Below, piece by piece: positions 20,139 to 34,869 of a stretch of DNA of 64,000 nucleotides (position 1 is its first letter; every line of letters starts with the position of its first letter). The notes under the pieces are model-generated. The model searched no databases. It was not told the DNA's origin and saw only the letters and a list, made by a program, of their open reading frames with translations. The stretch covers positions 1 to 64,000 of the forward strand of contig NZ_BRVO01000003.1 in the NCBI RefSeq assembly GCF_027924185.1. The letters are read 5' to 3'. Source of the DNA: Neptunitalea lumnitzerae. Its GTDB lineage: Bacteria > Bacteroidota > Bacteroidia > Flavobacteriales > Flavobacteriaceae. The position numbers and the translations under genes were made by a program.

Positions 20139-20786
20139 ATGAAGAAATTTGCTATAACAGCATTGATGGTATGTATAGGAATAAACTCTTTAGTAGCACA
20201 AAGCTCATCTAAAGCAAAAACTTTGTTAGATGAAGTATATACCAAAGTTAAAAGCTATAACAATTTATACATTGACTTTAAGTTTGAGTTAGACAATAAA
20301 ACAGAAGGTATTCACCAAGAAACTAAAGGAAATGTAACCATTGACGGAGATAAGTATGTATTAAATTATTTAGGGGCTACCAAAATTTTTGATGGTCATA
20401 AAATATACACTATCATTCCTGACAACGAAGAAGTTACCATTGAAAATAAAGGAGCCGATGACGAAGGTACCATTACACCTTCTAAAATGCTAACCTTCTA
20501 CAAAGATGGCTATAACTACAAATGGAAAGAATCTAAAAACATAAAAGGTAGAGAAATTCAGTTTATTGAATTAGTACCTATTTCTGCAAATGCAGAAGTT
20601 ACTAACTTACTTTTAGGTATTGACACCCAAACAAAACACATTTATAGTTTGGTAGAAAATGGCAAAAATGGTACCGCTACAACTATTACGGTGAATACCA
20701 TGAAAACGAACCAGCCATTACCTAAAAACACATTTGTTTTTAACAAAGACAAATACAAAAAGTTAGGATATTATATTAGTGAATAA
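20139..20786 (+). CDS. lolA: Outer-membrane lipoprotein carrier protein LolA
   Basis: A 215-residue periplasmic chaperone that carries lipoproteins from the inner to the outer membrane. I use ATG 20139, giving the signal peptide MKKFAITALMVCIGINSLVA; an in-frame ATG at 20112 lies inside ftsK and adds 9 lysine-rich residues. The mature part shows the LolA pattern: a helix with AKTLLDEVYTKVKSYNNL, the beta half-barrel DFKFELDNKTEG, and GNVTIDGDKYVLN. It sits between ftsK and an LptF/G permease, all envelope biogenesis. No LolB gene is nearby, as expected in Bacteroidota. Confidence 0.9.
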   Translation: MKKFAITALMVCIGINSLVAQSSSKAKTLLDEVYTKVKSYNNLYIDFKFELDNKTEGIHQETKGNVTIDGDKYVLNYLGATKIFDGHKIYTIIPDNEEVTIENKGADDEGTITPSKMLTFYKDGYNYKWKESKNIKGREIQFIELVPISANAEVTNLLLGIDTQTKHIYSLVENGKNGTATTITVNTMKTNQPLPKNTFVFNKDKYKKLGYYISE

Positions 20787-20833
20787 GCACTTGTAAAATT
20801 TGTTTCTATTATAAGAAACAATGAACCTTTAGA

Positions 20834-22306
20834 ATGAAAATATTAGACCGCTATATATTAAAACGTTTTTTAACTAATTTTCTTAGTGCCTACATCATCT
20901 TAACTATTATTTTCATCTTCCAGTTTATTTGGATGATTATAGATGATTTAGCAGGAAAAGGGTTAGACCTTTTAATTATTTCTAAATTTATTTTATACAA
21001 CATACCTGGGTTAACACCACTGGTTTTGCCGTTAACGGTTTTATTAGCATCGCTGTTAACATTTGGCTCATTAGCCGAAAACTATGAGTTTGCCGCCATG
21101 AAATCTACAGGGTTTTCTCTTATTAGAGCTATGAAATCTTTAATTGGTTTCATGATTTTATTAAGCATTGCTACCTTTTTTATAAACAACAATGTTATAC
21201 CAGCGGCAGAGCTTACCAACGTTAACCTTAAGAATAATATTAAAAAAGCAAAACCTGCCTTAGCCATTACCACTGGAGCTTTTAACAATTTAGAATCTTT
21301 GAATTTAAAAGTGGATGAAAAATACGGAGAAAACGACCGTTTTCTTAAAAACGTAGTAATTCACAAAAATTCTAAAGACAAAAAAAACCATACGGTAATT
21401 AAAGCCAAAGAAGGTGAATTATTTAGTAGCGAGGAGTCTAATATTCTTCAGTTAATACTAAAAGATGGTAATTATTACGAAGACATTGTATCTAAAGACC
21501 CGAAGAAAAGAGATAATTTTCCACATGCGAAAGCTAAGTTTGAAAAATATATTATTAATGTAGACGTATCTGGGTTTGATAATGAAGATCTTGACCAGAT
21601 AAAAATTGAGAATACCTTTAAAATGATGAATGTAACGGAGCTAAATTATGCCATCGATTCATTTAAAAATGGGTATTTAAACAATATGCATTCTTTTGGT
21701 GACAACTTGTATCGCCGTTCTGGATTTACAGAAATATATAATGCCAAACCCGAAGAAAATAAAAAGGATACAACTGTTACTGCAGCTACCAAGGCGGGTA
21801 TTATAGCCTCTGACGAATTGATCAATTTAATATCTGCAAACAAGAAAAAACAAGTACTTGATATTGCTGTAAACGGTGTATCAAACAAATACAATACATT
21901 GAAAAGTAAAAAAGGTGATTTCTTTTTCAGAAAAAAATTTTTGAATAAACATATCATCACCTATCAAAAGAAGTTTTCATTATCCGTTGCCTGCTTAGTA
22001 TTATTCTTTATTGGTGCTCCATTGGGTGCTATTATTAGAAAAGGAGGACTAGGATTGCCTATTATTATCTCTATGGTAATTTTCTTAGCATATCACTTTT
22101 TAGGTATGTTCTTAGAAAACTTCTCTGAAGATGGTTCGGTAAGTCCAACTATGGCAGCTTGGTTACCTACCATTATAATGCTACCATTTGGTATTTACCT
22201 TACCGATAGAGCTTCTAAAGACCGACCTGTTGCAGAATTGTATAAGTATTTTGCACCTATAGGCGCCTTTTTTAAGAAAATCTATAAAGCTTTAAACGCT
22301 TTATAA
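20834..22306 (+). CDS. LptF/LptG family LPS-export permease
   Basis: A 490-residue inner-membrane permease of the YjgP/YjgQ family. Three membrane helices lie in the first 125 residues, starting with MKILDRYILKRFLTNF, then a large periplasmic jellyroll-type domain, then three more helices near the C-terminus (about 375-470). With LptB and LptC it extracts LPS from the inner membrane. The periplasmic domain is longer than in proteobacterial LptF/G, with an inserted lysine-rich region around 300-340. Whether it takes the F or the G place cannot be told here. It lies 47 bases after lolA and 12 before ribB. Confidence 0.92.
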   Translation: MKILDRYILKRFLTNFLSAYIILTIIFIFQFIWMIIDDLAGKGLDLLIISKFILYNIPGLTPLVLPLTVLLASLLTFGSLAENYEFAAMKSTGFSLIRAMKSLIGFMILLSIATFFINNNVIPAAELTNVNLKNNIKKAKPALAITTGAFNNLESLNLKVDEKYGENDRFLKNVVIHKNSKDKKNHTVIKAKEGELFSSEESNILQLILKDGNYYEDIVSKDPKKRDNFPHAKAKFEKYIINVDVSGFDNEDLDQIKIENTFKMMNVTELNYAIDSFKNGYLNNMHSFGDNLYRRSGFTEIYNAKPEENKKDTTVTAATKAGIIASDELINLISANKKKQVLDIAVNGVSNKYNTLKSKKGDFFFRKKFLNKHIITYQKKFSLSVACLVLFFIGAPLGAIIRKGGLGLPIIISMVIFLAYHFLGMFLENFSEDGSVSPTMAAWLPTIIMLPFGIYLTDRASKDRPVAELYKYFAPIGAFFKKIYKALNAL

Positions 22307-22314
22307 TACCTTTG
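22307..22314 (+). promoter_or_regulatory. Putative -7 element placing ribB on a leaderless mRNA
   Basis: TACCTTTG ends 4 bases before the ribB ATG at 22319. Transcription from it would begin at or next to the start codon. No Shine-Dalgarno sequence precedes the ATG. No clear TTG is seen at -33. Confidence 0.45.
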
Positions 22315-22318
22315 CACT

Positions 22319-23461
22319 ATGAATACGTTAGTAAAAGAAATACAACTTAATACTATTGAAGAAGCCATTGCAGATATTAGAAATGGTAAAGTAGTTATTG
22401 TAGTTGACGATGAAAATAGAGAAAATGAGGGAGACTTTTTAGCAGCTGCTGAAACAGTTACACCTGAAATGATAAACTTCATGGCCACTCATGGTAGAGG
22501 TCTAATCTGTGCCCCACTAACCGAAAGCCGTTGTAAAGAACTTGGCTTACACTCTATGGTAGTAAACAACACAGACCATATGGAAACTGCTTTTACAGTT
22601 TCTGTAGATTTAAGAGGTTATGGAGTAACTACTGGTATATCTGCCGGAGACAGAGCCAAAACAGTTCAGGCTTTAGTAAACCCTGAAATTAAATCGCACG
22701 AATTGGCACGCCCTGGGCATATTTTCCCATTAATTGCAAAAGAAGGTGGTGTACTTAGAAGAACCGGACATACAGAGGCTGCAATAGACTTAGCCAGATT
22801 AGCTGGTTTTGAACCTGCAGGTGTGATCTGTGAAATTATGAACGAGGATGGTTCTATGGCACGTTTACCGCACTTAGTGGAAGTAGCACAGAAATTTGAC
22901 ATTAAGCTTATTTCTATTGAAGATTTAGTTGCCTACAGAATGCAACACGACAGTTTAATAGAAAAACGTGAAGATTTTGATATTACTACCCGATTTGGTG
23001 AGTTTAGATTACGTGCTTATGAACAAACCACCAATCATCAAATTCACATTGCACTTACCAAAGGAAATTGGAAAAAAGGTGATGAAGTATTAGCCAGAAT
23101 TAATTCCACCTTAGTAAATAACGATCTTTTAGGTACGCTTACAAACGATGCTGATGACAAATTGAAAGATATGTTCAATTTGATTAATAAAGAGGGAAAA
23201 GGTGCTATTATTTTTATCAACCAGAACAACCAAAGTGTAAGCATGCTAAGCAGATTGGCTGAGCTAAAAAGTTTACAAGAAAACGGTGAGGTAAAAGCTC
23301 CTAAAATTGTAATGGACGATAAGGACTATGGAATTGGAGCCCAAATTTTACATGACTTAGATATTTCTAAAATACGTTTGATATCTAACTCTACCCCTAA
23401 AACAAACAGAGTTGGTATTTCTGGGTATGGTTTAGACATTGTAGAGTATGTAAACTATTAG
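22319..23461 (+). CDS. ribB: 3,4-dihydroxy-2-butanone-4-phosphate synthase with degenerate GTP cyclohydrolase II domain (RibBX-like)
   Basis: A 380-residue protein for the ribulose-5-phosphate branch of riboflavin synthesis. The N-terminal 200 residues are a full RibB domain: DDENRENEGDFL, ATHGRGLICAPL, and the RRTGHTEAAIDLARLAG segment with catalytic H and E. The C-terminal 165 residues keep the RibA fold (RFGEFRLRAYE, EGKGAIIFI, GIGAQILHDL) but the three zinc-binding cysteines of GTP cyclohydrolase II (CxxxxxxxxxxCxCG) are absent. It therefore should not make the GTP-derived intermediate, and a separate RibA must exist. It resembles the RibBX hybrids described in other bacteria. No FMN riboswitch precedes it. 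Confidence 0.9.
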   Translation: MNTLVKEIQLNTIEEAIADIRNGKVVIVVDDENRENEGDFLAAAETVTPEMINFMATHGRGLICAPLTESRCKELGLHSMVVNNTDHMETAFTVSVDLRGYGVTTGISAGDRAKTVQALVNPEIKSHELARPGHIFPLIAKEGGVLRRTGHTEAAIDLARLAGFEPAGVICEIMNEDGSMARLPHLVEVAQKFDIKLISIEDLVAYRMQHDSLIEKREDFDITTRFGEFRLRAYEQTTNHQIHIALTKGNWKKGDEVLARINSTLVNNDLLGTLTNDADDKLKDMFNLINKEGKGAIIFINQNNQSVSMLSRLAELKSLQENGEVKAPKIVMDDKDYGIGAQILHDLDISKIRLISNSTPKTNRVGISGYGLDIVEYVNY

Positions 23462-23483
23462 AAACAATAGTATTCCACATCAT

Positions 23484-23516
23484 AAAAAATGCTCCTACAA
23501 ATTAGGAGCATTTTTA
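23484..23516. terminator. Bidirectional terminator between ribB and nitroreductase
   Basis: A stem of 13-14 bp (23484-23497 with 23503-23515) around a CAAAT loop, with A-run and T-run flanks. It lies between convergent genes. Confidence 0.88.
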
Positions 23517-23541
23517 TTTAAGTTATTATTTACATTATTGA

Positions 23542-24171
23542 TTACAAATCAATTACCGTATCTGTTACATTTTTTCTAACCTTTTTAAAGTCGGCAAACA
23601 TATCATCTACCGCCCTATACCCTACCGGCATAATTAATACCGATTTCAATTGCTTACTTTTCAAATCGAGCACTTGATCAAACATATCCGTTTTAAAGCC
23701 CTCCATAGGGCAAGCGTCTATTTCTTCTAACGCACATACCGTCATTAAGTTTCCTAAGGCTAAATACGCTTGTTTAGCTGCCCAAACCTCTATCTCTTCT
23801 AACTTTTTACCTCCAAAATCATTCACTAAAAAATTTTGGTACGGTTCCAAAATATCATCTGGCGTGTTTCTAATATCTTTTACCAAGGTAAAATACTCTT
23901 TTATAAAATTATCATCTACATTGGTAGTTATACAAAAAACCAACAGGTGAGAACAATCTCCCACTTGGCTTTGGTTATAGGCGTGCGTTTGCAATTCCTT
24001 TTTTAATTCATCATTACTAATTACAAACAAAGTAACCGGTTGTAATCCGTATGAAGTAGCAGTCAAATTAAAAGCTTCTTTCAGTAAAGTTACTTTATCA
24101 ACCGTCAATTTCTTCTCAGTATCAAATTTTTTAGTAGCATATCTCCAATTCAATTGTTCAATTACGCTCAT
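23542..24171 (-). CDS. NAD(P)H-dependent oxidoreductase, nitroreductase family
   Basis: A 209-residue flavoprotein of the NfsB/NfnB type, reducing nitro compounds or quinones with FMN and NAD(P)H. The N-terminal RYATKKFD, the FMN-contact region SYGLQPVTLFV, and the AKQAYLALGNLMTVCALEE helix with the CPMEGF segment that follows are family features. No signal peptide. The AraC regulator gene ends 36 bases upstream of it in the same direction, so they may be co-transcribed. Physiological substrate unknown. Confidence 0.9.
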   Translation of the reverse strand: MSVIEQLNWRYATKKFDTEKKLTVDKVTLLKEAFNLTATSYGLQPVTLFVISNDELKKELQTHAYNQSQVGDCSHLLVFCITTNVDDNFIKEYFTLVKDIRNTPDDILEPYQNFLVNDFGGKKLEEIEVWAAKQAYLALGNLMTVCALEEIDACPMEGFKTDMFDQVLDLKSKQLKSVLIMPVGYRAVDDMFADFKKVRKNVTDTVIDL

Positions 24172-24206
24172 ACCTGAATATTCTAATTTTTTATTGCAAT
24201 TTTTAT

Positions 24207-25025
24207 TTATGAAGCCACATATATTTCGTTTGCCTTTCTGTATTCAGATGGACGCTTCCCCATCAGTTTCTCAAAAGTATTACTAAACGTAGGCACACTA
24301 GTATATCCAACCTTATTAGCAATCTCGGCAATGGTATACGTATGATCTACCAACAGCTCTAACGACTTAAATATGCGCAACAATGCAAAGTAACGAATAA
24401 ATGGCATGCCTACCTCTTTTTTAAACAAACGATACAATGTTTTTTCTGATACCCCATACCGCTCAGACAACGCTGCCAACGTATGTGGCTCATGTACATG
24501 AGTGGTTATGTAATTAATAATTTTGTTCAACCGTTCATCTGACGCTTGTGGCAAATTCAATAATAAAGATTGTGTAGCACATTGCTCTAGCAATGCTTTA
24601 AACGCCATTACTATAACATATTTATTTTTTGTCTTTTTTATAATATCTCCCTTCCAGTCTTTGGTATGTAGCAACATCTCAAAAAGTAAATTATTCACCG
24701 GATAAATACCTTCCTTAAAAAAAAAGTTATGATCTAACGCCTTGATAGGAAAATATAAATTACGCATAATTACCTTTGGAGAACTTGGGTAAATGGCATG
24801 TGGCACATTAGGTGGTATCCACATAAAATGGCGCGCAGGCAAATAATGCGTTTTAGTTTTTGTTTTAATAAAAACCACTCCGCCTTCTGTATAAATAAAT
24901 TGTCCTTTCTTATGTATATGAGATTCAATTAAGATTTCTCCCATTAAATCATGATAACAATATACACTCCCTGGAATTTTATCAACTTCTGTAAGATAAT
25001 ATTTCTTTTGTATGCTTTCACTCAT
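24207..25025 (-). CDS. AraC-family transcriptional regulator
   Basis: A 272-residue regulator. The N-terminal half (about 25-125) is an AraC-type cupin sensing domain (HIHKKGQFIYTEGGVV, FMWIPPNVPHAIYP). The C-terminal 100 residues carry two helix-turn-helix motifs, the first around TLAALSERYGVSEKTLYRLF and the second around IAEIANKVGYTSVPTFSNTF, with the conserved end GKRPSEYRK. It is divergent from the CoA-transferase gene at 25199 with 173 bases between, the usual layout for a regulator and its target. Its inducer is unknown; an organic acid or acyl-CoA-related ligand would fit the context. Confidence 0.9.
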   Translation of the reverse strand: MSESIQKKYYLTEVDKIPGSVYCYHDLMGEILIESHIHKKGQFIYTEGGVVFIKTKTKTHYLPARHFMWIPPNVPHAIYPSSPKVIMRNLYFPIKALDHNFFFKEGIYPVNNLLFEMLLHTKDWKGDIIKKTKNKYVIVMAFKALLEQCATQSLLLNLPQASDERLNKIINYITTHVHEPHTLAALSERYGVSEKTLYRLFKKEVGMPFIRYFALLRIFKSLELLVDHTYTIAEIANKVGYTSVPTFSNTFEKLMGKRPSEYRKANEIYVAS

Positions 25026-25198
25026 GAAAATAAATACGATTGTCCGTTTTGAATAAGTAATTGTCTTTTTTTAATAAAATACGACTTAACATATTTTCTA
25101 ATTTAGATATAAATATAAAACATATCCCTATTAAAATATACATCAAATTAACAAATTATAATTTTTTAGGGTTATAACATATTAAAACCAAACACCAA

Positions 25199-26707
25199 AT
25201 GCATATTAAACGAATACGATATAGTGAATATCATAAGCTTATTACATCCCCTTCTGAAGCAGCCAAACTGATTAATAAAAATGACATATTAGGCGTTAGT
25301 GGATTTACCAAAGCAGGCGATAGTAAAAGTGTTTTACCAGAGATAGCGAAACGTGCGTTATCAGAAGAACTTTCGTTAACCGTGTTAAGCGGTGCTTCTT
25401 TAGGCTACAATACAGACGCCGATTTAGCTAAAAACGGAGCCTTACATAAAAGGTTACCTTTTCAAGCAGACCCTACTCTTAGAAAGGCTATAAATAACCA
25501 TGAAGTACTTTATGTAGACCAACATTTGAGCTACACTGCCGAAATGTTGCAAAATATTTCTGAATACCGAATTGATGTTGCCATTATAGAGGCCGTTAGT
25601 ATTACTGAAGATGGTTATATAGTACCCACAACTTCTGTAGGCAACTCTGCTAGCTTTGCGCAAAACGCTAATAAAATAATTATAGAGGTTAACACCTCTA
25701 TGCCACTAGACTTTCAGGGGATGCACGATGTAAAACTACAGAAAAAGCAACCCCACAGAGAGGTAATAAACATTACCGAAGTAGATGATAGAATTGGCGA
25801 GCCATACATTAAAATAGCGCCAGATAAGGTTATTGCCGTAGTGTACACCAACGTACCCGATTGCCCTGCCGTAATAGCCGCACCTGATGATAAAACCTCA
25901 GCGATCTCTAAGCATATTCTAACGTTTTTAGAAAAAGAAGTAGAAGCTGGTAGATTAACCAACTCGTTATTACCTCTACAAGCTGGTATTGGTAAAATTG
26001 CCAATGCCGTGTTAAGCGGATTTACCAAAAGTAACTTTGACAACCTTACCATGTACTCAGAAGTACTGCAAGACAGCACCTTTGAACTGTTTGATTCTGG
26101 TAAACTAAGCTTTGCCTCTGCCTCTTCTATTACCGTAACGGAAGGATGTTTAAAAAACATGGTTCAGCATTTTGACAAGTATAAAGACAAATTAATTCTG
26201 CGACCTCAAAATATAAGTAATGCCGGAGAGGTAATACGTAGACTGGGAGTTATTGCCATTAATACCGCCATTGAGTTTGATATGTATGGCAATGTAAACT
26301 CTACCCATATTACCGGTACTAAAATGATGAATGGTATTGGAGGCTCTGGAGATTTTGCCAGAAATGCCTACCTCAGCATATTTGTATGCCCATCTATCTC
26401 AAAAGAAAATAAAATATCGCATATAGTGCCTATGGTATCTCATACAGACCATACAGAGCACGATGTAGACATATTAGTAACAGAACAAGGGCTAGCCGAT
26501 ATACGCGGCTTAGCGCCAAGAGAACGTGCGGAAGTAATTATAGAAAATTGTGTGCACCCATTTTACAAAAAGCAATTGTTAGATTATTTTAAAGAAGCCT
26601 CAGCTGCCGGAGGGCAAACGCCACATATCCTAGAAAAGGCGTTTAGCTGGCATACCAATTTAATTGAAAATGGTACCATGAAGTTTCCTGAATTAGTGAA
26701 TCAATAA
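25199..26707 (+). CDS. Acetyl-CoA hydrolase/succinyl-CoA:acetate CoA-transferase family
   Basis: A 502-residue class I CoA-transferase of the Cat1/AarC/Ach1 type. The catalytic glutamate is E288 in MYSEVLQDS, the position used by AarC-type enzymes to form the enzyme-CoA thioester. LQAGIGKIANAVLSG and VTEQGLADIRGLAPRERA are further family motifs. It moves CoA between acetate and succinate or similar acids, linking acetate handling with the TCA cycle; some members hydrolyse acetyl-CoA. Divergent AraC control is probable. No acs or ack gene is near. Specificity within the family cannot be assigned by eye. Confidence 0.9.
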   Translation: MHIKRIRYSEYHKLITSPSEAAKLINKNDILGVSGFTKAGDSKSVLPEIAKRALSEELSLTVLSGASLGYNTDADLAKNGALHKRLPFQADPTLRKAINNHEVLYVDQHLSYTAEMLQNISEYRIDVAIIEAVSITEDGYIVPTTSVGNSASFAQNANKIIIEVNTSMPLDFQGMHDVKLQKKQPHREVINITEVDDRIGEPYIKIAPDKVIAVVYTNVPDCPAVIAAPDDKTSAISKHILTFLEKEVEAGRLTNSLLPLQAGIGKIANAVLSGFTKSNFDNLTMYSEVLQDSTFELFDSGKLSFASASSITVTEGCLKNMVQHFDKYKDKLILRPQNISNAGEVIRRLGVIAINTAIEFDMYGNVNSTHITGTKMMNGIGGSGDFARNAYLSIFVCPSISKENKISHIVPMVSHTDHTEHDVDILVTEQGLADIRGLAPRERAEVIIENCVHPFYKKQLLDYFKEASAAGGQTPHILEKAFSWHTNLIENGTMKFPELVNQ

Positions 26708-26810
26708 TTGTACGAGCATTTTTTTTGCTAGAAAATAGTTCATTTTTAAGTAGTTAGTTTTTAATCTATTTTTTTTTCAAAAAAAGTGTTTCACTATTGA
26801 AAAATCTTTC

Positions 26811-26818
26811 TATATTTG
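26811..26818 (+). promoter_or_regulatory. -7 element of tRNA-Ser copy A
   Basis: TATATTTG lies 10 bases before the tRNA. The 26 bases at 26800-26825 are identical to those before copy B. The -33 region is poorly matched. Confidence 0.65.
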
Positions 26819-26828
26819 CAACCGCAAA

Positions 26829-26913
26829 GGAGAAATGGCAGAGTGGTCGAATGCGGCGGTCTTGAAAACCGTTGAGGGTCACACCTCCGGGGGTTCGAAT
26901 CCCTCTTTCTCCG
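26829..26913 (+). tRNA. tRNA-Ser(UGA), copy A
   Basis: An 85-nt class II tRNA. Acceptor GGAGAAA (26829-26835) pairs with TTTCTCC (26906-26912), with G as discriminator. The anticodon stem GCGGT/ACCGT encloses CTTGAAA with anticodon TGA at 26863-26865. There is a long variable arm and a T-loop GTTCGAAT. CCA is not encoded. It is identical base for base to copy B at 32882. A rho-independent terminator follows at 26941. Its 3' end is the left edge of a 160-bp direct repeat. Confidence 0.97.
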
Positions 26914-27060
26914 CTGAGTAAGTCGGCAAACTAACCTAAGCCCTGTAGAGTCTAACTTTACAGGGTTTTTTTTGTGTTCTATATCACCAAAATTCACAAC
27001 CAAAAAGTAGTCTAACTAAGCATCCCTGATAGGAAATACCCAACCAGCTGGAAAGAAGTA
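26901..27060 (+). repeat. Direct repeat R1: tRNA-Ser 3' end plus 147 bp downstream
   Basis: It is repeated at 29556-29715 with offset 2655. The repeat starts in the T-arm of tRNA-Ser and covers the terminator and a stretch up to AGCTGGAAAGAAGTA. Differences seen by eye are one base less in the GGG/T run of the second copy, a changed AT-rich patch (ATCACCAAAATTC against ATCTGCCTAAATTC), and one substitution in AGTAGTCTAAC. Confidence 0.9.
26941..26973 (+). terminator. Terminator of tRNA-Ser copy A
   Basis: CCCTGTAGAG (26941-26950) pairs with CTTTACAGGG (26956-26965), one G-T wobble, followed by eight T. Confidence 0.85.
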
Positions 27061-27109
27061 CCCCTGAATACCAAATAGGAAGGATACATCACTTTATTCC
27101 ATAAACACA

Positions 27110-27140
27110 TTGCATAACTATGTATTTTATTATACCTTTA
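27110..27140 (+). promoter_or_regulatory. Promoter candidate for the padR cassette
   Basis: TTG (27110-27112), a 20-nt spacer and TACCTTTA (27133-27140), one mismatch to TAnnTTTG, end 4 bases before the GTG start of the PadR gene. This predicts a mRNA with almost no leader. Confidence 0.5.
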
Positions 27141-27144
27141 TCAT

Positions 27145-27477
27145 GTGAATGAGAATTTTTTACATAAATGGAAATCGCAAGTTAAAAAAGGAACACTTGC
27201 TTTTATTGCTCTAAATGTCTTGAAAGACCATGAATATTATGGTTACGAATTGATAGAGCAAATAAAAAAAAATACGCGAATTGAAATTGCAGAAGGTACA
27301 CTCTACCCTTTAATGAACCGTTTAAAAAAAGAAGGGCTTGTCACATCTAAATGGGTTGAACAAACATCCGGTATTCCACGAAAATACTATACCCTAACCA
27401 ATACAGGCGAAGCCACTTTATCAGAAATGAGCAACTTTTGGTTTGACCTAGAAAAATCAATAAAAAGAATATCCTAA
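27145..27477 (+). CDS. PadR-family transcriptional regulator
   Basis: A 110-residue winged-helix repressor of the PadR-s1 type. KKGTLAFIALNVL, YYGYELIEQIKK, the wing IAEGTLYPLMNRLKKEGLV and SGIPRKYYTLTNTGE are the family's conserved blocks. The start is GTG 27145; an ATG two bases earlier in that frame meets a stop at once. The stop overlaps the start of the next gene by one base. PadR genes next to HAAS/DUF1700-like membrane genes are a recurring pair. It is the first gene of the tRNA-bounded compartment and probably represses its own cassette. Confidence 0.92.
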   Translation: MNENFLHKWKSQVKKGTLAFIALNVLKDHEYYGYELIEQIKKNTRIEIAEGTLYPLMNRLKKEGLVTSKWVEQTSGIPRKYYTLTNTGEATLSEMSNFWFDLEKSIKRIS

Positions 27478-28100
27478 TGAAACCTATACAGTTCACCAAT
27501 CAAACGGCACAAAAAATATACAGTGATTATATCACAAGAATTAAACGTACCACTCAGCCATTGGATAAAAAGGACCAAGAAGAAATTCTAATGGAACTCA
27601 ACAGTCATATTTACGAAGGATTACTTCAGCTTGACCCTACAAACGAAATTGAAAATTTAGTTAATTTACTTGACAAATTAGGAGCTCCCGAAGAAGTTTT
27701 GAAGCCCTTAGTTGCTCAAAAAAAATTAGAGCAAGCAACAAAAACTTTCAATCCTAAACATATATTTAAAGCATTAGCTCTCAACCTTTCTAATGGTGTA
27801 CTGTACATAGTCTTCGCATTCTTGTACTTGACATTATTTGGTTTTGTTTATTTAATTATTGCCAAAATTCTACATCCCAATCAAGTAGGTCTTTTTTTCA
27901 AAGAGGGTAAATTTCATTTATTGGGTATTAGAAATTCTCATCAAGTGAAAATTCTGGAACTTACCGAGGTATTAGGATATTGGTTTATTCCTACAATGCT
28001 ATTCATAATCGTAGTTCTTTATATACTCATTACTCTTTTACTAAGAATGAAAAGAAAAAAATTTACATTATTACATAGCATAACAATGTATTATTTATAA
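27477..28100 (+). CDS. HAAS/DUF1700-like membrane protein
   Basis: A 207-residue protein. The N-terminal 100 residues form an acidic helical domain (KKDQEEILMELNSHIYEGLL, ENLVNLLDKLGAPEEVLKPL) of the HAAS type (helical domain associated with PadR-type regulators). Two to three hydrophobic segments follow (about 105-135 and 168-190). The start codon overlaps the padR stop codon (TAATG). Such proteins are thought to act as membrane partners of the PadR regulator; the signal is unknown. It precedes a serine hydrolase gene by 16 bases. Confidence 0.8.
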   Translation: MKPIQFTNQTAQKIYSDYITRIKRTTQPLDKKDQEEILMELNSHIYEGLLQLDPTNEIENLVNLLDKLGAPEEVLKPLVAQKKLEQATKTFNPKHIFKALALNLSNGVLYIVFAFLYLTLFGFVYLIIAKILHPNQVGLFFKEGKFHLLGIRNSHQVKILELTEVLGYWFIPTMLFIIVVLYILITLLLRMKRKKFTLLHSITMYYL

Positions 28101-28116
28101 CTAAAAATTAATTTTT

Positions 28117-29436
28117 ATGAAATCAATTTCAGCAACCATAACACTACTCTTTCTAAGTTTCCTTACGTACGGTCAGCAATCTGCTCTTCTAAATGAGCTA
28201 AAAAATAAATATGAGCCTTATTACCAAGCTACCCATATTAAAATGGGAATTTTACTAAAACAAAACGATCATTTCTTAGCTACACGGTTAAATTTCGATA
28301 ATGATAGAAATACTGTTTTCAACATTGGAAGTGCGACTAAAACATTCACTGCTATACTGATTTTACAGGAAGTTGAAAGAGGTACCTTAAAATTATCTGA
28401 TAGCATTGGTAAATTCTTGAGCCCAATACAAAATATATCAGGGAGTCTTTCCGTGGAGCAATTGCTAAGGCATGAAACGGGACTCGCTGAAACTGTGGGT
28501 AATCAAGAATGGGATGCATATCACATACCTACTGATAGTATTTTAAGAGCTGATGTCTTGCAAAATGTAAAACCTCAAAACAAAAAACAAATAGGTCATT
28601 TTGTATATACAAACACCAATTACATTTTACTAGGGCAAATTCTTGAAAAAATAAATGACCAAAGTTATTTTGACTTACTAAAAAACCGAATATTCACTCC
28701 CTGTGGTCTTAAGAACACCTATCCCTATGTCTCCAAAAGCATAACAAATTTAGTTCATCCCACTGATGAATTAAATGAACAAGATCAATACCAAGGAATT
28801 AACTACAAGTTTTTTGCAGATTATGCCTTTGCTGCCGGGAGTATTGCTTCAAATCTTGAAGACATGGCTTTATTTTATGAACATCTCTATAAAAAGCAAA
28901 CCTTAATTAGCCAAAAAAGTTTACTTCAAATGACCAATTTTAAAAATGGCAAATATGGCTTAGGCCTTCAAAAATTAACCATCGATGAAACTGAATATTG
29001 GGGACATGGAGGAAACAACTACGGCTACGCTTTCAGAAATTTTTACAACCCACAAACTGGGGATATGATACTCTATTTTATTAATCGATTCAGAGTTCCC
29101 ATGAAAAATAGTTTAAATAAAGATTTGAAAGCCATACTAAATCATCAATCAATTCCAAAATTTAGAACGTATAAAACGAAAGAATTTAAAGATTTTATTG
29201 GCGAATATGTCCTAGATGGACTTAACATAAAGTTTTCCATTTTTGAAAAAGAGAATTTCATCTATTTTCAAATGCAACACCTAAAAGTTCCATTAGTAAG
29301 TTACGAACCCAATGTATTGTTGGATGTTTCCTCAGGTATTAAGTTTATGAAATCATCAGAAAATCCAAATCAACTTATTTGGTTTCAAAATAGAAAAAAA
29401 CTTATGGCCAAAAAGACTTTATTAAATATAGATTGA
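28117..29436 (+). CDS. Serine hydrolase, class C beta-lactamase/PBP fold
   Basis: A 439-residue exported hydrolase with a signal peptide ending LFLSFLTYGQ. The active-site serine is S72 in GSATK (SxxK, K75); the second motif is Y-x-N in YTNTNYILLG, and the third is HGG in WGHGGNNYGY in place of KTG. These are the features of beta-lactamase-related peptidases and esterases. A C-terminal extension of about 80 residues (from about 355, starting TYKTKEFKDFIGEYVLDG) has the DUF3471-like look. It is the last gene of the padR cassette. Antibiotic hydrolysis should not be assumed; a D-amino-acid peptide or ester substrate is as likely. Confidence 0.9.
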   Translation: MKSISATITLLFLSFLTYGQQSALLNELKNKYEPYYQATHIKMGILLKQNDHFLATRLNFDNDRNTVFNIGSATKTFTAILILQEVERGTLKLSDSIGKFLSPIQNISGSLSVEQLLRHETGLAETVGNQEWDAYHIPTDSILRADVLQNVKPQNKKQIGHFVYTNTNYILLGQILEKINDQSYFDLLKNRIFTPCGLKNTYPYVSKSITNLVHPTDELNEQDQYQGINYKFFADYAFAAGSIASNLEDMALFYEHLYKKQTLISQKSLLQMTNFKNGKYGLGLQKLTIDETEYWGHGGNNYGYAFRNFYNPQTGDMILYFINRFRVPMKNSLNKDLKAILNHQSIPKFRTYKTKEFKDFIGEYVLDGLNIKFSIFEKENFIYFQMQHLKVPLVSYEPNVLLDVSSGIKFMKSSENPNQLIWFQNRKKLMAKKTLLNID

Positions 29437-29551
29437 ATGTTTCCAAACTTTAATTTTAGTTAAAATTAGAATATAGAGACTAATTAGGTGTCACAATATT
29501 CTTTTAATAGTTTCTAAGCCCCTATAAATACAAGAAAAACAAAAACTCAGA

Positions 29552-29568
29552 GAACCCCTCTTTCTCCG
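29552..29568 (+). pseudogene. tRNA-Ser 3'-end remnant
   Basis: GAACCCCTCTTTCTCCG matches the last 17 bases of tRNA-Ser with one change (T to C). No acceptor or anticodon part precedes it, so it is not a gene. It forms the left end of repeat R2. Confidence 0.85.
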
Positions 29569-29715
29569 CTGAGTAAGTCGGCAAACTAACCTAAGCCCTG
29601 TAGAGTCTAACTTTACAGGTTTTTTTTGTGTTCTATATCTGCCTAAATTCACAACCAAAAAGTAGACTAACTAAGCATCCCTGATAGGAAATACCCAACC
29701 AGCTGGAAAGAAGTA
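29556..29715 (+). repeat. Direct repeat R2 (partner of R1)
   Basis: The second copy of the 160-bp repeat, starting in the tRNA remnant. The terminator in it is weakened (CAGG instead of CAGGG). Together with R1 it bounds the padR-HAAS-hydrolase cassette. Sequences diverge immediately after AGAAGTA on the right side. Confidence 0.9.
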
Positions 29716-29747
29716 TAGATGCTCCATAATGATAGTAATAAACTTAA

Positions 29748-29864
29748 CTACAACTGCAAAGTACCGGTCAGCTTTTTATCTTCTTCACTCTTACCGCCAT
29801 TGGCGTTACGCTAACGGGAGCTGGTGCTGCTTTAATGGTTCAGGTATTTTATCTACCTGAATGA
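29748..29864 (+). pseudogene. Relic of a small membrane-protein gene (left copy)
   Basis: An open stretch of 38 codons without a start, ending in TGA, reads LFIFFTLTAIGVTLTGAG then ALMVQVFYLPE. It is related to the stretch at 32796-32852. Both contain TAACGGGAGCTGG. No intact gene of this type is in the window. Confidence 0.5.
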
Positions 29865-29903
29865 GTTTGTTCTATTAGATAATACCTGTGGTATTTTTTC
29901 TAT

Positions 29904-30596
29904 TTAGTTTTCATAGATATCATCTCCTACTGTATAGTTTTTTTCAAAAAGGGTTTCTATTTTTCCATAATTATCAACCTTAACCTTTTTATTAAAAACA
30001 TCTGGGGTACTTTCGTAATATGAAAAGTTTATAGCTTCAATTGTTAAATCTTTTGATACAATAACTCCTTGATATACGTACATATCGTACCTCAAATAAT
30101 CTGTAACACCCAAAAAGGAATAATCAATTATTCCTTCATCAGGTTTATAGGTGAATATAAAACAAGCGGACAGTGATTTAGAATTTAACTTTGATAGGAA
30201 TAGAGAAACAGAATCATTTATTTTTATCTTTTTAATAATACCACAACTACAAATACCAAAGTTTGCCTCAAACCCATTATCAAACTTATAGTTCAACGAG
30301 TCCTTATAAGATTCAAATTTTTGACATTCTTTATTATAAGGTAAATTTTCAAAGCTAAAATCTAACAAGTCTTGTTGATTAGTTAAGCCATTTGTAAATA
30401 ATTGCTTGTTGTAATAAAATGGCAGTGTATCATAAGACCTCACGTTCAAAAACTCTTCAAACTCTTTTTTATTTAAATTAATATTAGTTTCTATATCTAT
30501 TACAGATTCTTTAGTTTCATTAACGCTCGTTTTATTGTTTTCTTTACAAGAAACCAATATGCTAATCATTAATAAATATATATACAATCCCTTCAT
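29904..30596 (-). CDS. Hypothetical lipoprotein
   Basis: A 230-residue protein with a lipoprotein signal: MKGLYIYLLMISILVSCKEN, acylated cysteine C17 in LVSC. The mature part is acidic and AT-rich in codon use, with a CGICS-like FGICSCGIIKKIKIN segment. I do not recognise a family. It is the last of four leftward genes that lie downstream of a decayed RHS core fragment at 32569-32700, the place where immunity genes of RHS toxins are kept. An immunity role is inference only. Upstream, a 37-codon open fragment at 30644-30754 separates it from the next gene. Confidence 0.65.
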   Translation of the reverse strand: MKGLYIYLLMISILVSCKENNKTSVNETKESVIDIETNINLNKKEFEEFLNVRSYDTLPFYYNKQLFTNGLTNQQDLLDFSFENLPYNKECQKFESYKDSLNYKFDNGFEANFGICSCGIIKKIKINDSVSLFLSKLNSKSLSACFIFTYKPDEGIIDYSFLGVTDYLRYDMYVYQGVIVSKDLTIEAINFSYYESTPDVFNKKVKVDNYGKIETLFEKNYTVGDDIYEN

Positions 30597-30732
30597 CTTA
30601 GATGCTATTTATAATTTGCTTTAAAGTATTATATGTAAATAGATTAATGATCAAATAACACTTCATTTTCATATCCAACATTAAATTGATATTTTTCTTT
30701 TTGATTTCCTTTTAACTCCGTTGTTTCTTGAA

Positions 30733-31473
30733 TTACTTTAAAGGTTTTAAAATGCTTTCACTAATTTTTTTAATTCTTTCTTCATTTGATATTTTGTACC
30801 TAGACACTATTTCTATTTCATCATACTTTTCTACATTAACATCTCCTAGTTCAGCGCAATATGATAAATCGTTTACGGTTAAGCTATAATTTTTTGAAAT
30901 TGAAAATGTTCTTTTCCATCCGCACTCATAATACAAGCCATCTTGAATAATCATTTTATCTACTAACACATTCTTATCATTAAATATTTGTAACTCAATA
31001 GTGCAAGTTTTATAATCTGATGCTTCACCTTCATAATAAGAAAAGAGCAACACTCTATTATTATCTATATCTGGCAAACGTAATCCAAAATAACCTTGTT
31101 TTTTAGATGGATGCCCATTATCATAATGATTCGCTTTAGTCTCATACTCCGTATTAACACTAAACATAACATCTAGTTCATTTAAATTAAATTCTTGATG
31201 ACAGTTTGGTGAACAACAATACTTTTTTAATTTAATCTCACCATTTTCTATCATATCGGTATCAATAGGTAATTTACATATAGGTATCGAATCCCAGTGA
31301 ATCTTAATTTGTTTAAGAGAATCTATCATTTCCTCCTTAGTAGTCAATGATTTTTTTGTTTTTTCACGATCATTACTGATTTCAATTTTTTTAACTATTG
31401 ATTTCTTTTGCTTAGACTCATTACAATTTTGAAACAAAAATAGTGCTGATAAAAAAAATAAAAACTTATTCAT
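30733..31473 (-). CDS. Hypothetical lipoprotein
   Basis: A 246-residue protein with signal MNKFLFFLSALFLFQNCNES and lipobox cysteine C17. The lysine-rich linker (about 20-50) leads to a globular part containing a CCSPNCHQEFNLNELDVMF segment and several cysteines. No family recognised. Its start overlaps the end of the membrane-protein gene at 31466 by 8 bases, so the two are translated together and may form a unit. It belongs to the very AT-rich leftward block behind the RHS relic. Confidence 0.68.
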   Translation of the reverse strand: MNKFLFFLSALFLFQNCNESKQKKSIVKKIEISNDREKTKKSLTTKEEMIDSLKQIKIHWDSIPICKLPIDTDMIENGEIKLKKYCCSPNCHQEFNLNELDVMFSVNTEYETKANHYDNGHPSKKQGYFGLRLPDIDNNRVLLFSYYEGEASDYKTCTIELQIFNDKNVLVDKMIIQDGLYYECGWKRTFSISKNYSLTVNDLSYCAELGDVNVEKYDEIEIVSRYKISNEERIKKISESILKPLK

Positions 31474-31984
31474 TATTGCTCTTTAATTTAAATAAACTAT
31501 AAAGGTGAAACACTAGAATACTACTGTAAATAATAAAACTCATCACGTAGTTTATTGTATTGTGTAGCGTGTAATTTTTCTTGCTATAAGGAGGGGGAAG
31601 CTCTTTTGGATAATCTATATAAGGAGGAATTTCTATAAACCAATAAATAGCAATAATTAGTATACAAATAGAAATAACAATTTGCGGTATACTTTTTAGT
31701 CTATATGGTAATAATGTATTTACACTATATAAAGAATAAACTAAAAATATAGTAAGGGTTATGAAAAGAGTAAAACTAAATATAGGTATAGAATAAAACT
31801 CTGGCAATATAGTATACTTTACTCCAGGAATTAATGTGTTAGGCACAAAAAATAAAAGTGCCAAAATAAAGACTACTTTAGAAGGTAAGTGAAATTTATC
31901 AGTAGTCTTACGAACTAAATAGCTAATTTCAGTAATGAATGATATCATCAGTATAAAAAACATAATGTAGGTCAAACTTTTCAT
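31466..31984 (-). CDS. Hypothetical membrane protein
   Basis: A 172-residue integral membrane protein with four to five hydrophobic segments (about 1-20, 33-55, 64-90, 97-118, 140-165). A cytosolic or periplasmic loop with PPYIDYPKELPPPYSKK is rich in proline. I do not recognise a family. It overlaps the lipoprotein gene downstream by 8 bases, suggesting a two-gene unit. Possible roles in a toxin-immunity setting come only from its position near the RHS core remnant. Confidence 0.62.
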   Translation of the reverse strand: MKSLTYIMFFILMISFITEISYLVRKTTDKFHLPSKVVFILALLFFVPNTLIPGVKYTILPEFYSIPIFSFTLFITLTIFLVYSLYSVNTLLPYRLKSIPQIVISICILIIAIYWFIEIPPYIDYPKELPPPYSKKNYTLHNTINYVMSFIIYSSILVFHLYSLFKLKSNNE

Positions 31985-32062
31985 GACTCAACTGGTATTT
32001 TTAATGTTTGAGTTTATTCTTTAACAACTGAGTAGATAGTAAAATCTTCACCTCTTTTAAAG

Positions 32063-32527
32063 TCACTTCAATTCATACCTGGTAAACTCTACCGAGTTTA
32101 AATCATCAACAGTAGTAAGTATATTATAGCCGTTTGGAATATAAAGCTTATTTTCAAATATGATATACGGACTTGGAACTCCTTGATTAATTTTATAAAT
32201 AGTATTATTCTTTATATTTATTAATTTTTCGTGTGATACCCATGGACCTATCCATGTCTTAACAGTTTCTAATTTATATTCGTTTTCTTTCTCTTTAGGT
32301 AATTCTAACAACATTGTAGATATGTCATTCTGAACATCCGTTGGATTTCGAAGATATTGAGTAATCTCTACAGGCAAATCCGTAAATTTTACATTCTTCA
32401 CTTTTAGGGTATTGATATTTTGCTCTTTACAACTGTTAAAAAGCAATACAATAAATAAAAAATTCAAATATTTCAATTTGTTCTCAAGTTTAGTTTTATC
32501 AATACTACTGTCAGTACTGGTATACAA
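32063..32527 (-). CDS. Hypothetical lipoprotein
   Basis: Up to 154 residues. Taken from ATG 32527 it has 17 polar residues before the hydrophobic stretch; a TTG at 32476 would give LKYLNFLFIVLLFNSCKEQN, a proper lipoprotein signal with a lipobox ending FNSC, and is the likelier start in my view. The remainder is a short beta-rich domain with KTWIGPWVSHEKL. No family recognised. It is the first complete gene after the RHS core fragment, 42 bases downstream of that fragment's stop, which is where a cognate immunity gene would normally sit. Confidence 0.6.
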   Translation of the reverse strand: MYTSTDSSIDKTKLENKLKYLNFLFIVLLFNSCKEQNINTLKVKNVKFTDLPVEITQYLRNPTDVQNDISTMLLELPKEKENEYKLETVKTWIGPWVSHEKLINIKNNTIYKINQGVPSPYIIFENKLYIPNGYNILTTVDDLNSVEFTRYELK

Positions 32528-32568
32528 GTTTTGAAAATTTTGTAAATCACCATAAGGTTGGTCAAAAA

Positions 32569-32700
32569 TTAATTATAAGAAATCCATCCCAGGTATTTCT
32601 CCGCCAACGGGTCTACTACACTTAACCAAATACTAGTTTTAAGGTTGTAATAGTGGGTACCATAATAATAGTTGCTAATTATTGGCATTTCAAAAAGTAA
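32569..32700 (-). pseudogene. RHS repeat-associated core fragment (decayed)
   Basis: The minus strand in one frame reads YYYGTHYYNLKTSIWLS, then VVDPLAEKYLGWISYN and a stop. This is the hallmark C-terminal junction of RHS/YD-repeat toxins in Bacteroidota (YYGxRYYxPxTSxWLSVDPLAEKYPGxSPYxY). An extra valine codon interrupts SVDP, the proline after KY is leucine, and a stop replaces the toxin part. No RHS repeats precede it. It is therefore a remnant of a lost polymorphic toxin. Confidence 0.82.
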
Positions 32701-32764
32701 AACTTTTAATAATTTAAATATAGTAAGAAGTTTCTTAACTTAAAACTATTACAAATAAAAAGGC

Positions 32765-32782
32765 TACCTCTTTAAAGAGGTA
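32765..32782. repeat. 18-nt perfect palindrome
   Basis: TACCTCTTTAAAGAGGTA reads the same on both strands. It lies between the RHS relic and the right relic ORF. It could be an operator or the remains of a terminator; nothing else supports either. Confidence 0.5.
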
Positions 32783-32795
32783 AAATCCAACATAA

Positions 32796-32852
32796 TTTAT
32801 CACTATTACCGCAACTAGTGTGATGATAACGGGAGCTGGGCTTTCAATATTC
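32796..32852 (+). pseudogene. Relic of a small membrane-protein gene (right copy)
   Basis: After a stop codon, the frame reads FITITATSVMITGAGLSIF and runs into the tRNA promoter. About half of 16 aligned residues match the left relic (29748-29864), and TAACGGGAGCTGG is shared exactly. Confidence 0.45.
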
Positions 32853-32863
32853 AAAAATCTTTC

Positions 32864-32871
32864 TATATTTG
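32864..32871 (+). promoter_or_regulatory. -7 element of tRNA-Ser copy B
   Basis: TATATTTG, 10 bases before the tRNA, in a stretch (32853-32878) identical to that upstream of copy A. Confidence 0.65.
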
Positions 32872-32881
32872 CAACCGCTAA

Positions 32882-32966
32882 GGAGAAATGGCAGAGTGGT
32901 CGAATGCGGCGGTCTTGAAAACCGTTGAGGGTCACACCTCCGGGGGTTCGAATCCCTCTTTCTCCG
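32882..32966 (+). tRNA. tRNA-Ser(UGA), copy B
   Basis: Identical in all 85 bases to copy A, anticodon TGA at 32916-32918. Its own promoter and an own, better-paired terminator (32980-33016) are present, so it should be expressed. Downstream sequence differs from copies R1 and R2 after GCTGAGTA, apart from the related terminator hairpin. Confidence 0.97.
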
Positions 32967-32979
32967 CTGAGTACTGCGT

Positions 32980-33016
32980 AAGCCCTGTAAAGTTTAACTT
33001 TACAGGGCTTTTTTTA
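32980..33016 (+). terminator. Terminator of tRNA-Ser copy B
   Basis: AAGCCCTGTAAAG (32980-32992) pairs perfectly with CTTTACAGGGCTT (32998-33010) around TTTAA, then a T-run. Confidence 0.9.
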
Positions 33017-33141
33017 ACCTTTATGTTTCGGCTATTGTGCTATATTTTCAATTATTACATCTCCCCTATTCCTTATACCTAAATTATATTATTAAGATTT
33101 GACTACGTATAAAAACAAGAGAATATGTATATTTAAACACT

Positions 33142-33810
33142 ATGAATAATCAATCTGCTCTAATGAAATTATATACATACCTTATTATCTCTTTTCTTTT
33201 TTGCAACATAGCCAAAAGTCAAATTCAAACAAATTACTTTGTAGATGATGTGAACACTGTTGACTGTGCTTTTTTCGAATTCTGCGTTAACGACAACGCT
33301 AAGATTACCGAAGTGAATCTCATCGAAAATATGTCTACTTATAAAAATAAAGAGACTCTACAACAATTAAAAGATTATCTACTAAGTCTGGAATTTCACC
33401 CTGATACTAAACTGAAAAACGCTTGTCATAATATCACCTTTACCTTTATAAACTCAAAGTATGAGCACATGCAGGTTGCAAGTAACGCCAATACTCCAGA
33501 AACCCAATTATTAAAAGGAGCATTTCGCTATAAGAATCCTTACTACCAGAAAACTGTAATTAAAAGGACAAAAAGAATTCAAAAAGAAAAATCGAAGGAT
33601 GACAATCAAATTTATGATATTGAGTGGATATCAAATCGCCAATACAATTTAATTTACAAAAGAATGCCTAGTGAACGACTAAAAAAATACATAGGCGAAT
33701 CTATTAAAGTAGATATTCTAGAAGTTTTTAATGATGGTAGCTATGTATTTAGAGCCACCAACGAGCACAATGATGACATTACGTTTGGAGTTATCATTAA
33801 AGTAAAATAA
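33142..33810 (+). CDS. Hypothetical exported protein
   Basis: A 222-residue protein, or 215 if ATG 33163 is used, which gives the cleaner signal peptide MKLYTYLIISFLFCNIAKSQ. TATATTTA, one base off the -7 consensus, lies 7 bases before the first ATG. The mature part has a cysteine pair (DCAFFEFCVND), a middle basic stretch KRTKRIQKEKSK and a C-terminal beta-rich part. I do not recognise a family. It is the first gene to the right of tRNA-Ser copy B, and the next unknown gene follows 28 bases later. Confidence 0.62.
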   Translation: MNNQSALMKLYTYLIISFLFCNIAKSQIQTNYFVDDVNTVDCAFFEFCVNDNAKITEVNLIENMSTYKNKETLQQLKDYLLSLEFHPDTKLKNACHNITFTFINSKYEHMQVASNANTPETQLLKGAFRYKNPYYQKTVIKRTKRIQKEKSKDDNQIYDIEWISNRQYNLIYKRMPSERLKKYIGESIKVDILEVFNDGSYVFRATNEHNDDITFGVIIKVK

Positions 33811-33838
33811 ACCAGAAGTACCTAACCTAACAAAATAA

Positions 33839-34630
33839 ATGATCGAACAAAAAGACCCTAGTAAAAACGTAAAACTCTATTCACAAAAATCAATTGCACT
33901 AGCCACCTTTTTAGGCGGGCCATTAGCTGCGGGTTATTTAATTAGCAAAAACTATAGCAATATTGAAGAGCCTACACATAGCAAAAATGCTCTTATTATA
34001 GGTATCTTAAGTACCCTTATCCTATTTGGAATATTACTACAATTAGATGATGCGGTTATAGATAAAATTCCTTCTGCCATCATACCTGCTATGTATACTA
34101 TTATAATTTATTTCGTAGTTGAAAAATATCAAGGTACCATCCTTACTCTACACAAAGAAAATGGAAATGAGTTTTACTCTCAAGGCAAAGCTGCGCTTAT
34201 AGGTATTATTTCATTACTAACTATTGTAACCGTAATATTTGGCTATTTCTTCTTAAGTACTGATGAGGAAGTATATAACCGTTATGATGCTGAATTAGCT
34301 GTTTTTTCAGAAAATGAAAATGAGACATTGGTTTTCTATGACCATTTAGATACCGAATCGAATGCTACCCTCATCTACGAATTAGAAAATTCAATCATTC
34401 CGAAGTGGAAAGAAAACATTGAGATAATTCATAAAACCAATGAATTTAAAAATCTACCCTCAGAATTAAAGGCGCAAAATGACTTACTCTTAAACTATGC
34501 AGAGCTAAGACTTGAAGCCTTTGAACTTTTTAAAAAAGCAATTAAAGAAGACTCTACTGAGTACAGCAATCAAATAGAGCAACTTCATTACCATATAGAT
34601 GTAGTACTTAACAAACTAAATAACCTTTAA
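33839..34630 (+). CDS. Hypothetical membrane protein
   Basis: A 263-residue protein with four hydrophobic segments in the first half (about 20-36, 48-66, 80-96, 116-140) and a soluble, acidic, helical C-terminal half (about 145-263) with heptad-like patterns. The opening SIALATFLGGPLAAGYLISKN is reminiscent of small Bacteroidota membrane proteins of unknown role. No known domain is seen in the C-terminal part. It is probably co-transcribed with 33142 and ends before a terminator at 34638. Confidence 0.68.
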   Translation: MIEQKDPSKNVKLYSQKSIALATFLGGPLAAGYLISKNYSNIEEPTHSKNALIIGILSTLILFGILLQLDDAVIDKIPSAIIPAMYTIIIYFVVEKYQGTILTLHKENGNEFYSQGKAALIGIISLLTIVTVIFGYFFLSTDEEVYNRYDAELAVFSENENETLVFYDHLDTESNATLIYELENSIIPKWKENIEIIHKTNEFKNLPSELKAQNDLLLNYAELRLEAFELFKKAIKEDSTEYSNQIEQLHYHIDVVLNKLNNL

Positions 34631-34637
34631 AAATTTG

Positions 34638-34660
34638 AAGCCGCTTTTACAGCGGCTTTC
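34638..34660 (+). terminator. Terminator after 33839 gene
   Basis: AAGCCGCT (34638-34645) pairs with AGCGGCTT (34651-34658) around TTTAC. The T-tract is short. Confidence 0.7.
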
Positions 34661-34827
34661 TTATGTGCTTCTTTATCACAATTTAACTGCCTAACCTCTC
34701 AAACCATCAACGTTTACCATACCTCACCACCTAAACCTCTGAAAGTGTGAAAACAACACATATACATCATGTATAAAAATAAAGCAGGTGTATATATTTT
34801 TAATTTTACGAAAACGTTTGAATTATA

Positions 34828-34835
34828 TATTTTTG
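34828..34835 (+). promoter_or_regulatory. Putative -7 element of gap
   Basis: TATTTTTG matches TAnnTTTG, 34 bases before the ATG. The -33 element is unclear. Confidence 0.45.
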
Positions 34836-34869
34836 TATTACTAAAATCACAAAAACAAACAAATATATA

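Follow-up and report, generated by a model that had tools for sequence, protein, structure and literature searches.

A likely integrase-less remnant of a tRNA-Ser-targeting mobile element at an AT-rich, repeatedly rebuilt tRNA-Ser hotspot in Neptunitalea lumnitzerae

Integrative and conjugative elements (ICEs) and integrative and mobilizable elements (IMEs) can decay into cis-mobilizable elements (CIMEs), which have lost the genes for integration and transfer and keep both attachment sites, attL and attR; accretion of such elements is also described in the sections of PMC5704250 that concern them. The same sections describe NBU2 of Bacteroides fragilis, which uses a tyrosine integrase and the 3' end of a tRNA-Ser gene. 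A 50K island of Riemerella anatipestifer carries a 19-bp repeat (TCCCTCTCTCTCCGCAAAA) downstream of a tRNA gene, according to the relevant part of PMC9745183, and in the Frankia actinomycete integrative and conjugative element (AICE) Fean6303 the direct repeats extend beyond the 3' end of a tRNA-Arg gene, with an attL of 81 bp in the corresponding part of PMC3218068. Here we describe a locus of Neptunitalea lumnitzerae (GCF_027924185.1) within a window of 64,000 nt, positions 1 to 64,000 of contig NZ_BRVO01000003.1, where sequence comparison makes it likely that a decayed, integrase-less remnant of a tRNA-Ser-targeting element lies at an AT-rich and repeatedly rebuilt tRNA-Ser hotspot. We take this genome and the host of NBU2 to belong to the same phylum, and R. 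anatipestifer is presumably a related bacterium.

The locus resembles a CIME in that the integrase and transfer genes are gone, a probable attR is kept and the structure is a tRNA-associated tandem; unlike in a CIME, the arm region of attL was not found and flank sequence stands on both sides. NBU2 is similar in the class of its target gene, a likeness of description and not of sequence, but bears an integrase. The att repeat of the R. anatipestifer island closely resembles the tRNA-Ser core discussed below, whereas that island is phage-like, 50 kb long and has an integrase that was tested. Fean6303 offers a precedent for long repeats and for more than two copies at a tRNA, although its repeats are the attachment sites of an integrase-bearing element. 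A Flavobacteriaceae tRNA-Ser integrase family identified in this analysis (genomes G018, G232, G166, G406 and others) agrees with the locus in its target core, in the arm-like site and in the spacing at the right end; compared with its members, the window remnant is without integrase, left end and transfer genes.

The locus is organized around a direct repeat, 26901–27060 and 29556–29715, whose copies start 2655 nt apart and are identical in 156 of 161 aligned columns, with three substitutions and two single-base gaps. Going by length and without a shuffle control, this repeat (160 bp, 97%) is far beyond chance. The original prediction had described a repeat of about 160 bp at this offset, with a left copy that completes a full tRNA, and both statements were confirmed: the left copy spans the 3' end of a tRNA-Ser(TGA) gene (copy A, 26829–26914) together with the flank behind it. 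The right copy (B) had been said to hold the last 17 tRNA bases; this number must be corrected to 14 exact bases (CCCTCTTTCTCCGC), or 18 with one mismatch allowed. Both copies are real, but a further partial copy had been overlooked, and with it a complete second tRNA-Ser(TGA) (copy C, 32882–32967). Three tRNA-derived copies thus lie in one AT-rich island. The stretch from the upstream region through the tRNA of C (32842–32973) is identical to that of A (26789–26920) at 129 of 132 positions, with three differences, and the terminator after C resembles that after A (37 nt, 92%). Rfam returned only tRNAs above the gathering score. The prediction had also seen no integrase in the window, and indeed the PF00589 profile at E ≤ 1e-5 gave five matches in the genome and none on C3:1-64000.

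The bases that precede copy B point to integration. Right ends of elements of the family consist of an arm-like site, a spacer of about 60 nt and then the tRNA 3' core, and by eye this order precedes 8 of 10 downstream core copies from outside the window. In the window, AATTAGGTGTCAC, an exact match to AATTMGGTGTCAC, stands 62 nt before CCTCTTTCTCCGC (at 29557), compared with 60 nt in G232. We aligned the 90 nt at 29467–29556, core excluded, to seven of the ten non-window sequences (two G195 rows and L039 from G027 were left out), with 634 other 90-nt stretches of the window between 20 and 36 kb as controls. The right end of G232 scored z 6.0 and that of G166 z 3.9; in each case 1 of 1000 mononucleotide shuffles and 0 of the 634 other stretches were as good. 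Of the rows left out, L039 and one from G195 have by eye no arm. Exact copies of the 13-mer AATTMGGTGTCAC stand at nine distinct sites in 244 loci (2.13 Mb, overlapping) and nowhere else in these loci: besides the window, the sites are the right end of G232 and seven left ends. The 13-mer occurs once in the window, where the first-order expectation for an exact match is 0.003. Since an arm-like site, a spacer of about 60 nt and the core precede the second repeat copy as they do in family elements, the copy start at 29556 is probably an attR.

The left boundary has no such counterpart. The arm lies 109–110 nt after the tRNA in the six left ends measured, and no match to it was found in the window after tRNA A, so the left boundary is no intact attL of the family kind. 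Searching 26901–34900 by tblastn with three integrase queries gave nothing better than E 0.75; a family integrase gene would be expected about 240 nt after the tRNA, and here padR begins 231 nt after tRNA A. Compared with the definition of a CIME, the segment between the ends is free of integration and transfer genes and its attR is kept by sequence comparison; on the left the core is present in tRNA A and the arm was not found, and the remnant falls outside the definition because it has no intact attL. Likewise, two features of the element family are present: the core lies within the 3' end of a tRNA-Ser, and an arm-like site precedes the right-end core by about 60 nt (62 nt here). The third, an integrase about 240 nt after the tRNA, was not found. 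The predicted integration at a tRNA 3' end is therefore supported at the right boundary, by the G232 and G166 matches and the arm spacing, but not at the left. To account for the other ~146 bp of the repeat, the alternative offered with it (duplication or homologous exchange) is required.

These ~146 bp beyond the core, here called R, are probably host flank from the 3' side of the tRNA that is present twice. Host flank is the simplest reading because the first part of R, through the terminator, can be aligned to the tRNA flank of G001, a sister species and the sole other genome of the genus compared, and because R has no arm sites. One difference between A and B, a terminator G, can be polarized by G001, and we read the derived state as being in B. 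As R stands on both sides, a second event beyond integration is needed. The attachment site is probably the ~14-nt core and not the whole 160 bp: in the 10 genomes searched, 4 had candidate att repeats (G166, G195, G232 and G406; the tRNA of G359 was not found), and these match over 13–26 nt, which disfavors a single long site. That R forms the left end of the element is disfavored as well, since R contains no such arm. When the bases that precede B and C were aligned locally to the left flank, nothing rose above shuffles.

Several observations weigh against reading the locus as an element remnant with duplicated host flank. For five of the seven right ends, the overall similarity to the window is not significant (79, 927, 332, 554 and 134 of 1000 shuffles did as well, as did 70 to 574 of the 634 other window sites), so that the case for a right end rests on G232, G166, the arm and its spacing. 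The 13-mer was defined after viewing the window and the ends of G232, G297 and G406, and such elements were overrepresented among the loci searched; its count therefore describes specificity and is no independent test. With up to two mismatches it is expected 2.53 times in the window and was found once, and inexact matches consequently carry no weight. Past its first part, R has no counterpart in G001. A 66-nt motif that begins in R starts 108 nt after tRNA A, near the arm offset of 109–110 nt elsewhere, and because these offsets are so close, a diverged left end of another element at the motif is possible. Finally, longer att repeats are documented in parts of two sources, 53 bp in a Riemerella island at tRNA-Arg (PMC6764341) and the 81 bp of the Frankia element (PMC3218068).

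Table 1. Features of the tRNA-Ser locus, in window coordinates.
Feature	Position	Strand	Basis or remark
Region upstream of tRNA A, probably its promoter; copied before tRNA C	26789–26828	+	132-nt repeat
tRNA-Ser(TGA) copy A, complete	26829–26914	+	ARAGORN; Rfam tRNA
Attachment core CCCTCTTTCTCCGC in 3' end of tRNA A	26901–26914	+	also found, complete or with one base different, in other elements at the right end
R, left copy: terminator stem 26938–26968, spacer, first 39 nt of 66-nt motif	26915–27060	+	alignment; read as host
66-nt motif, complete behind A, first 39 nt in B	27022–27087	+	second genome copy, 86% over 66 nt
padR regulator gene	27145–27477	+	PF03551, E 3.2e-22
HAAS-domain protein gene, membrane protein by reading	27477–28100	+	PF22564, E 8.7e-7
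Serine hydrolase gene, beta-lactamase/D-aminopeptidase superfamily	28117–29436	+	PF00144, E 6.7e-37
Arm-like site AATTAGGTGTCAC of the putative lost element's right end	29482–29494	+	exact match to AATTMGGTGTCAC, 62 nt before CCTCTTTCTCCGC
Probable attR of a tRNA-Ser-targeting element: its right end with the attachment core	29482–29569	+	alignment to G232 and G166 right ends
Right repeat copy B: core and R, ending inside 66-nt motif	29556–29715	+	alignment
40-nt repeat D, left copy, edging AT-rich orphan segment	29785–29824	+	80% to 32800–32839
Four orphan genes	29904–32527	-	no family assigned
40-nt repeat D, right copy, immediately before upstream region of tRNA C	32800–32839	+	imperfect direct repeat
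tRNA-Ser(TGA) copy C, complete	32882–32967	+	ARAGORN
Terminator of tRNA C, 15-bp perfect stem	32980–33010	+	

The explanation that we favor starts from a mobile element of the Flavobacteriaceae family that would once have integrated at the 3' end of this tRNA-Ser. Its right end would survive as the arm-like site (29482–29494), the ~60-nt spacer and the core (29556–29569), a probable attR, with the cassette genes lying inside it and the left end and integrase gone. We keep two routes as the likeliest and make no choice between them. The left end may have been lost by repair or recombination through the shared core, which would have copied host flank from attR behind tRNA A; this route is plausible because the homology of B starts at the core. 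Alternatively, the tRNA unit may already have been duplicated, with the element sitting in the second copy, which the existence of copy C and the tRNA-unit duplications of G033, G034 and G004 make plausible. Later, the right copy would have been truncated at 29715 and the AT-rich orphan segment added, the second complete tRNA-Ser (C) being a further copy of the tRNA unit. The more specific proposal of a one-step copy-back, in which break repair through the 14-nt core deleted left end and integrase together, is tentative and in our view rather doubtful. If true, it would give a tRNA gene a one-step route to regain its own terminator and lock passenger genes in the chromosome, and other tRNA islands could be scanned for its signature, a lone right end with host flank on either side. 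The remnant is a product of ordinary genome evolution, a tidy genomic fossil, and it suggests that such fossils are recognizable by an arm-like site at the right end and a fixed spacing even after integrase and left end are gone.

Plain tandem duplication is an unlikely alternative. It would make A, B and C copies of one tRNA-plus-flank unit, with later insertions between them and no integrase involved in B, and in its favor C is a complete copy, with the 129 of 132 positions identical to A given above. Duplications of tRNA-Ser(TGA) also occur in G033 (119 nt, 8737 bp apart), G034 (in tandem) and G004 (68 nt, 1089 bp apart), and by eye no arm precedes the second copies in G033 and G004. What this alternative leaves unexplained is that the homology of B starts at the core and that the preceding bases match an element right end. 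Still less probable is an accretion of two sibling elements, in which R would be the left end of both, A holding the newer left end and B the newer right end joined to the older left end: G007 is arranged in a comparable way, in that 139 nt from the 3' end of the tRNA recur 10.5 kb downstream at 69% with an integrase start fragment behind each copy, the sequence past the G232 right end resembles the G195 left end by eye, and the 66-nt motif lies at 108 nt against 109–110 nt for the arm in other left ends, but R has no GGTGTCAC-type arm though the right end at B has one, left and right arms are alike by eye in the G166, G232, G406 and G007 elements, and the first part of R can be aligned to the tRNA flank of G001.

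Other genomes suggest that elements have integrated repeatedly at tRNA-Ser(TGA) in Flavobacteriaceae. The integrase gene of G018 begins 241 nt after this tRNA, and the 30 loci of its homologues, taken from 397 Flavobacteriaceae genomes as the best match per genome with the query's own locus included, lie at tRNA-Ser(TGA) in 25 cases, tRNA-Ser(GGA) in two and tRNA-Lys in one, with no called tRNA in two; three second matches in the same rank range had no locus and are outside this count. Relatives at E ≤ 1e-30 occur in 186 of the 397 sampled genomes, a wider family whose targets were checked in the 30 loci. We also surveyed the flanks of 39 tRNA-Ser(TGA) loci in 37 genomes. Three of these (G002, G005, G036) have less than 260 nt downstream, and within 260 nt an integrase or a fragment was found in 4 of the other 36: G007, G018 (the query), G019 and G031 (opposite strand). 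Hits farther off in the surveyed loci are confined to G007 and G013. Downstream direct repeats that include tRNA sequence occur in G007, G033, G034 and G004, besides the window genome. The attR of the G018 element was not found in the 59 kb read, and among the papers listed from the open-licence literature we recognized no account of this integrase family in Flavobacteriaceae by title or abstract.

The G007 locus (L160), where the 3' end of tRNA-Ser recurs with its flank after 10.5 kb and both copies lead into an integrase start fragment, looks like a fossil of tandem accretion. In G033 (L128), a 119-nt repeat comprising nearly the whole tRNA-Ser and 37 nt of flank surrounds 8.7 kb, inside which the integrase query found nothing. 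Draft contigs of G005, G036, G004 and G002 break off within a second copy or at most ~215 nt from the 3' end of tRNA-Ser(TGA), a hint that repeats were left unresolved at these places. The window genome itself (G000) carries a relative of the tRNA-Ser integrase with an internal stop elsewhere (L246, G000:C2:386000-392000), with no tRNA called in those 6 kb.

Positions 20205–26971 are collinear with G001 at 76.5%, up to just past its one tRNA-Ser(TGA), after which G001 has, by reading, transposase-like open reading frames (ORFs) and a peptidase gene instead of the cassette; the best match to the hydrolase anywhere in G001 has 31% identity. The original prediction had held that relatives all carrying both repeats with the cassette would indicate an old vertical arrangement; G001 does not show this, as it has one tRNA-Ser(TGA) and neither cassette nor second copy here, though with a single relative the test is weak. 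The island itself, 26972–34803, is absent at both corresponding junctions of G001, and its G+C content of 0.302 is below that of all 82 other window stretches of the same length (0.325–0.356). We list this absence and the low G+C content as support for foreign DNA. The GAPDH-like gene that follows the island is on a different contig in G001, behind a DegP-like gene; in the window genome, the DegP-like gene is followed by one gene and then by homologues, by reading, of genes ~6 kb past the tRNA of G001. As the G001 neighbors sit elsewhere, a rearrangement breakpoint lies between the tRNA and the GAPDH-like gene. In effect, the blocks behind the tRNA and behind the DegP-like gene have swapped partners between the two Neptunitalea genomes, an exchange of neighbors (window 26971–34804; G001 contigs C21 and C8; G000 C2 ~862–868 kb).

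The ORFs between the repeat copies encode a PadR-like regulator, a HAAS-domain protein and a serine hydrolase, with no integration or transfer genes among them. Adjoining PadR and HAAS genes have been proposed, in the part of PMC11237479 that treats them, as a dyad alternative to two-component systems; here the HAAS gene adjoins a standalone PadR-like regulator (27145–28100). Against the NCBIfam models listed for it (the best 25 of 45 families), the hydrolase falls far short of the cut-offs. PADLOC gave for it a single weak match to AbiEi (E 0.005), which we take to be a chance match. The same gene order is found in G297, with identities of 72.5%, 56.7% and 27.7%, ~48 kb from its tRNA-Ser and outside the ~26 kb that we took as the element by an estimated boundary. 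The closest relatives of the hydrolase (39–44%) have by reading histidine-kinase-like genes as neighbors at three of three loci and an ABC-transporter gene at two of three, with no padR. The padR-HAAS-hydrolase trio is probably, though not certainly, cargo of the lost element.

Downstream of B, segment 29716–32841 has a G+C content of 0.275, and its four orphan genes matched no family in Pfam (E 0.001), PADLOC or NCBIfam (E 0.01). A query of tRNA plus R gave 51 records in the plasmid collection, none covering 80% of the query; in the 20 of 51 listed, the match is confined to the tRNA part. For the 101-nt stretch with the 66-nt motif, 127 of 200 shuffles folded equally well, so its fold does not stand out, and an 18-mer of the motif had 0 matches in viral_contigs. 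A 21-letter motif pattern with up to two mismatches matched in 4 of 199 genomes, and only the two copies of the window genome are motif-like. The motif carries several GAATACC-like words, and the second of its two genomic copies lies at G000:C2 ~320.64–320.71 kb (L115:4644-4709), beside an orphan gene.

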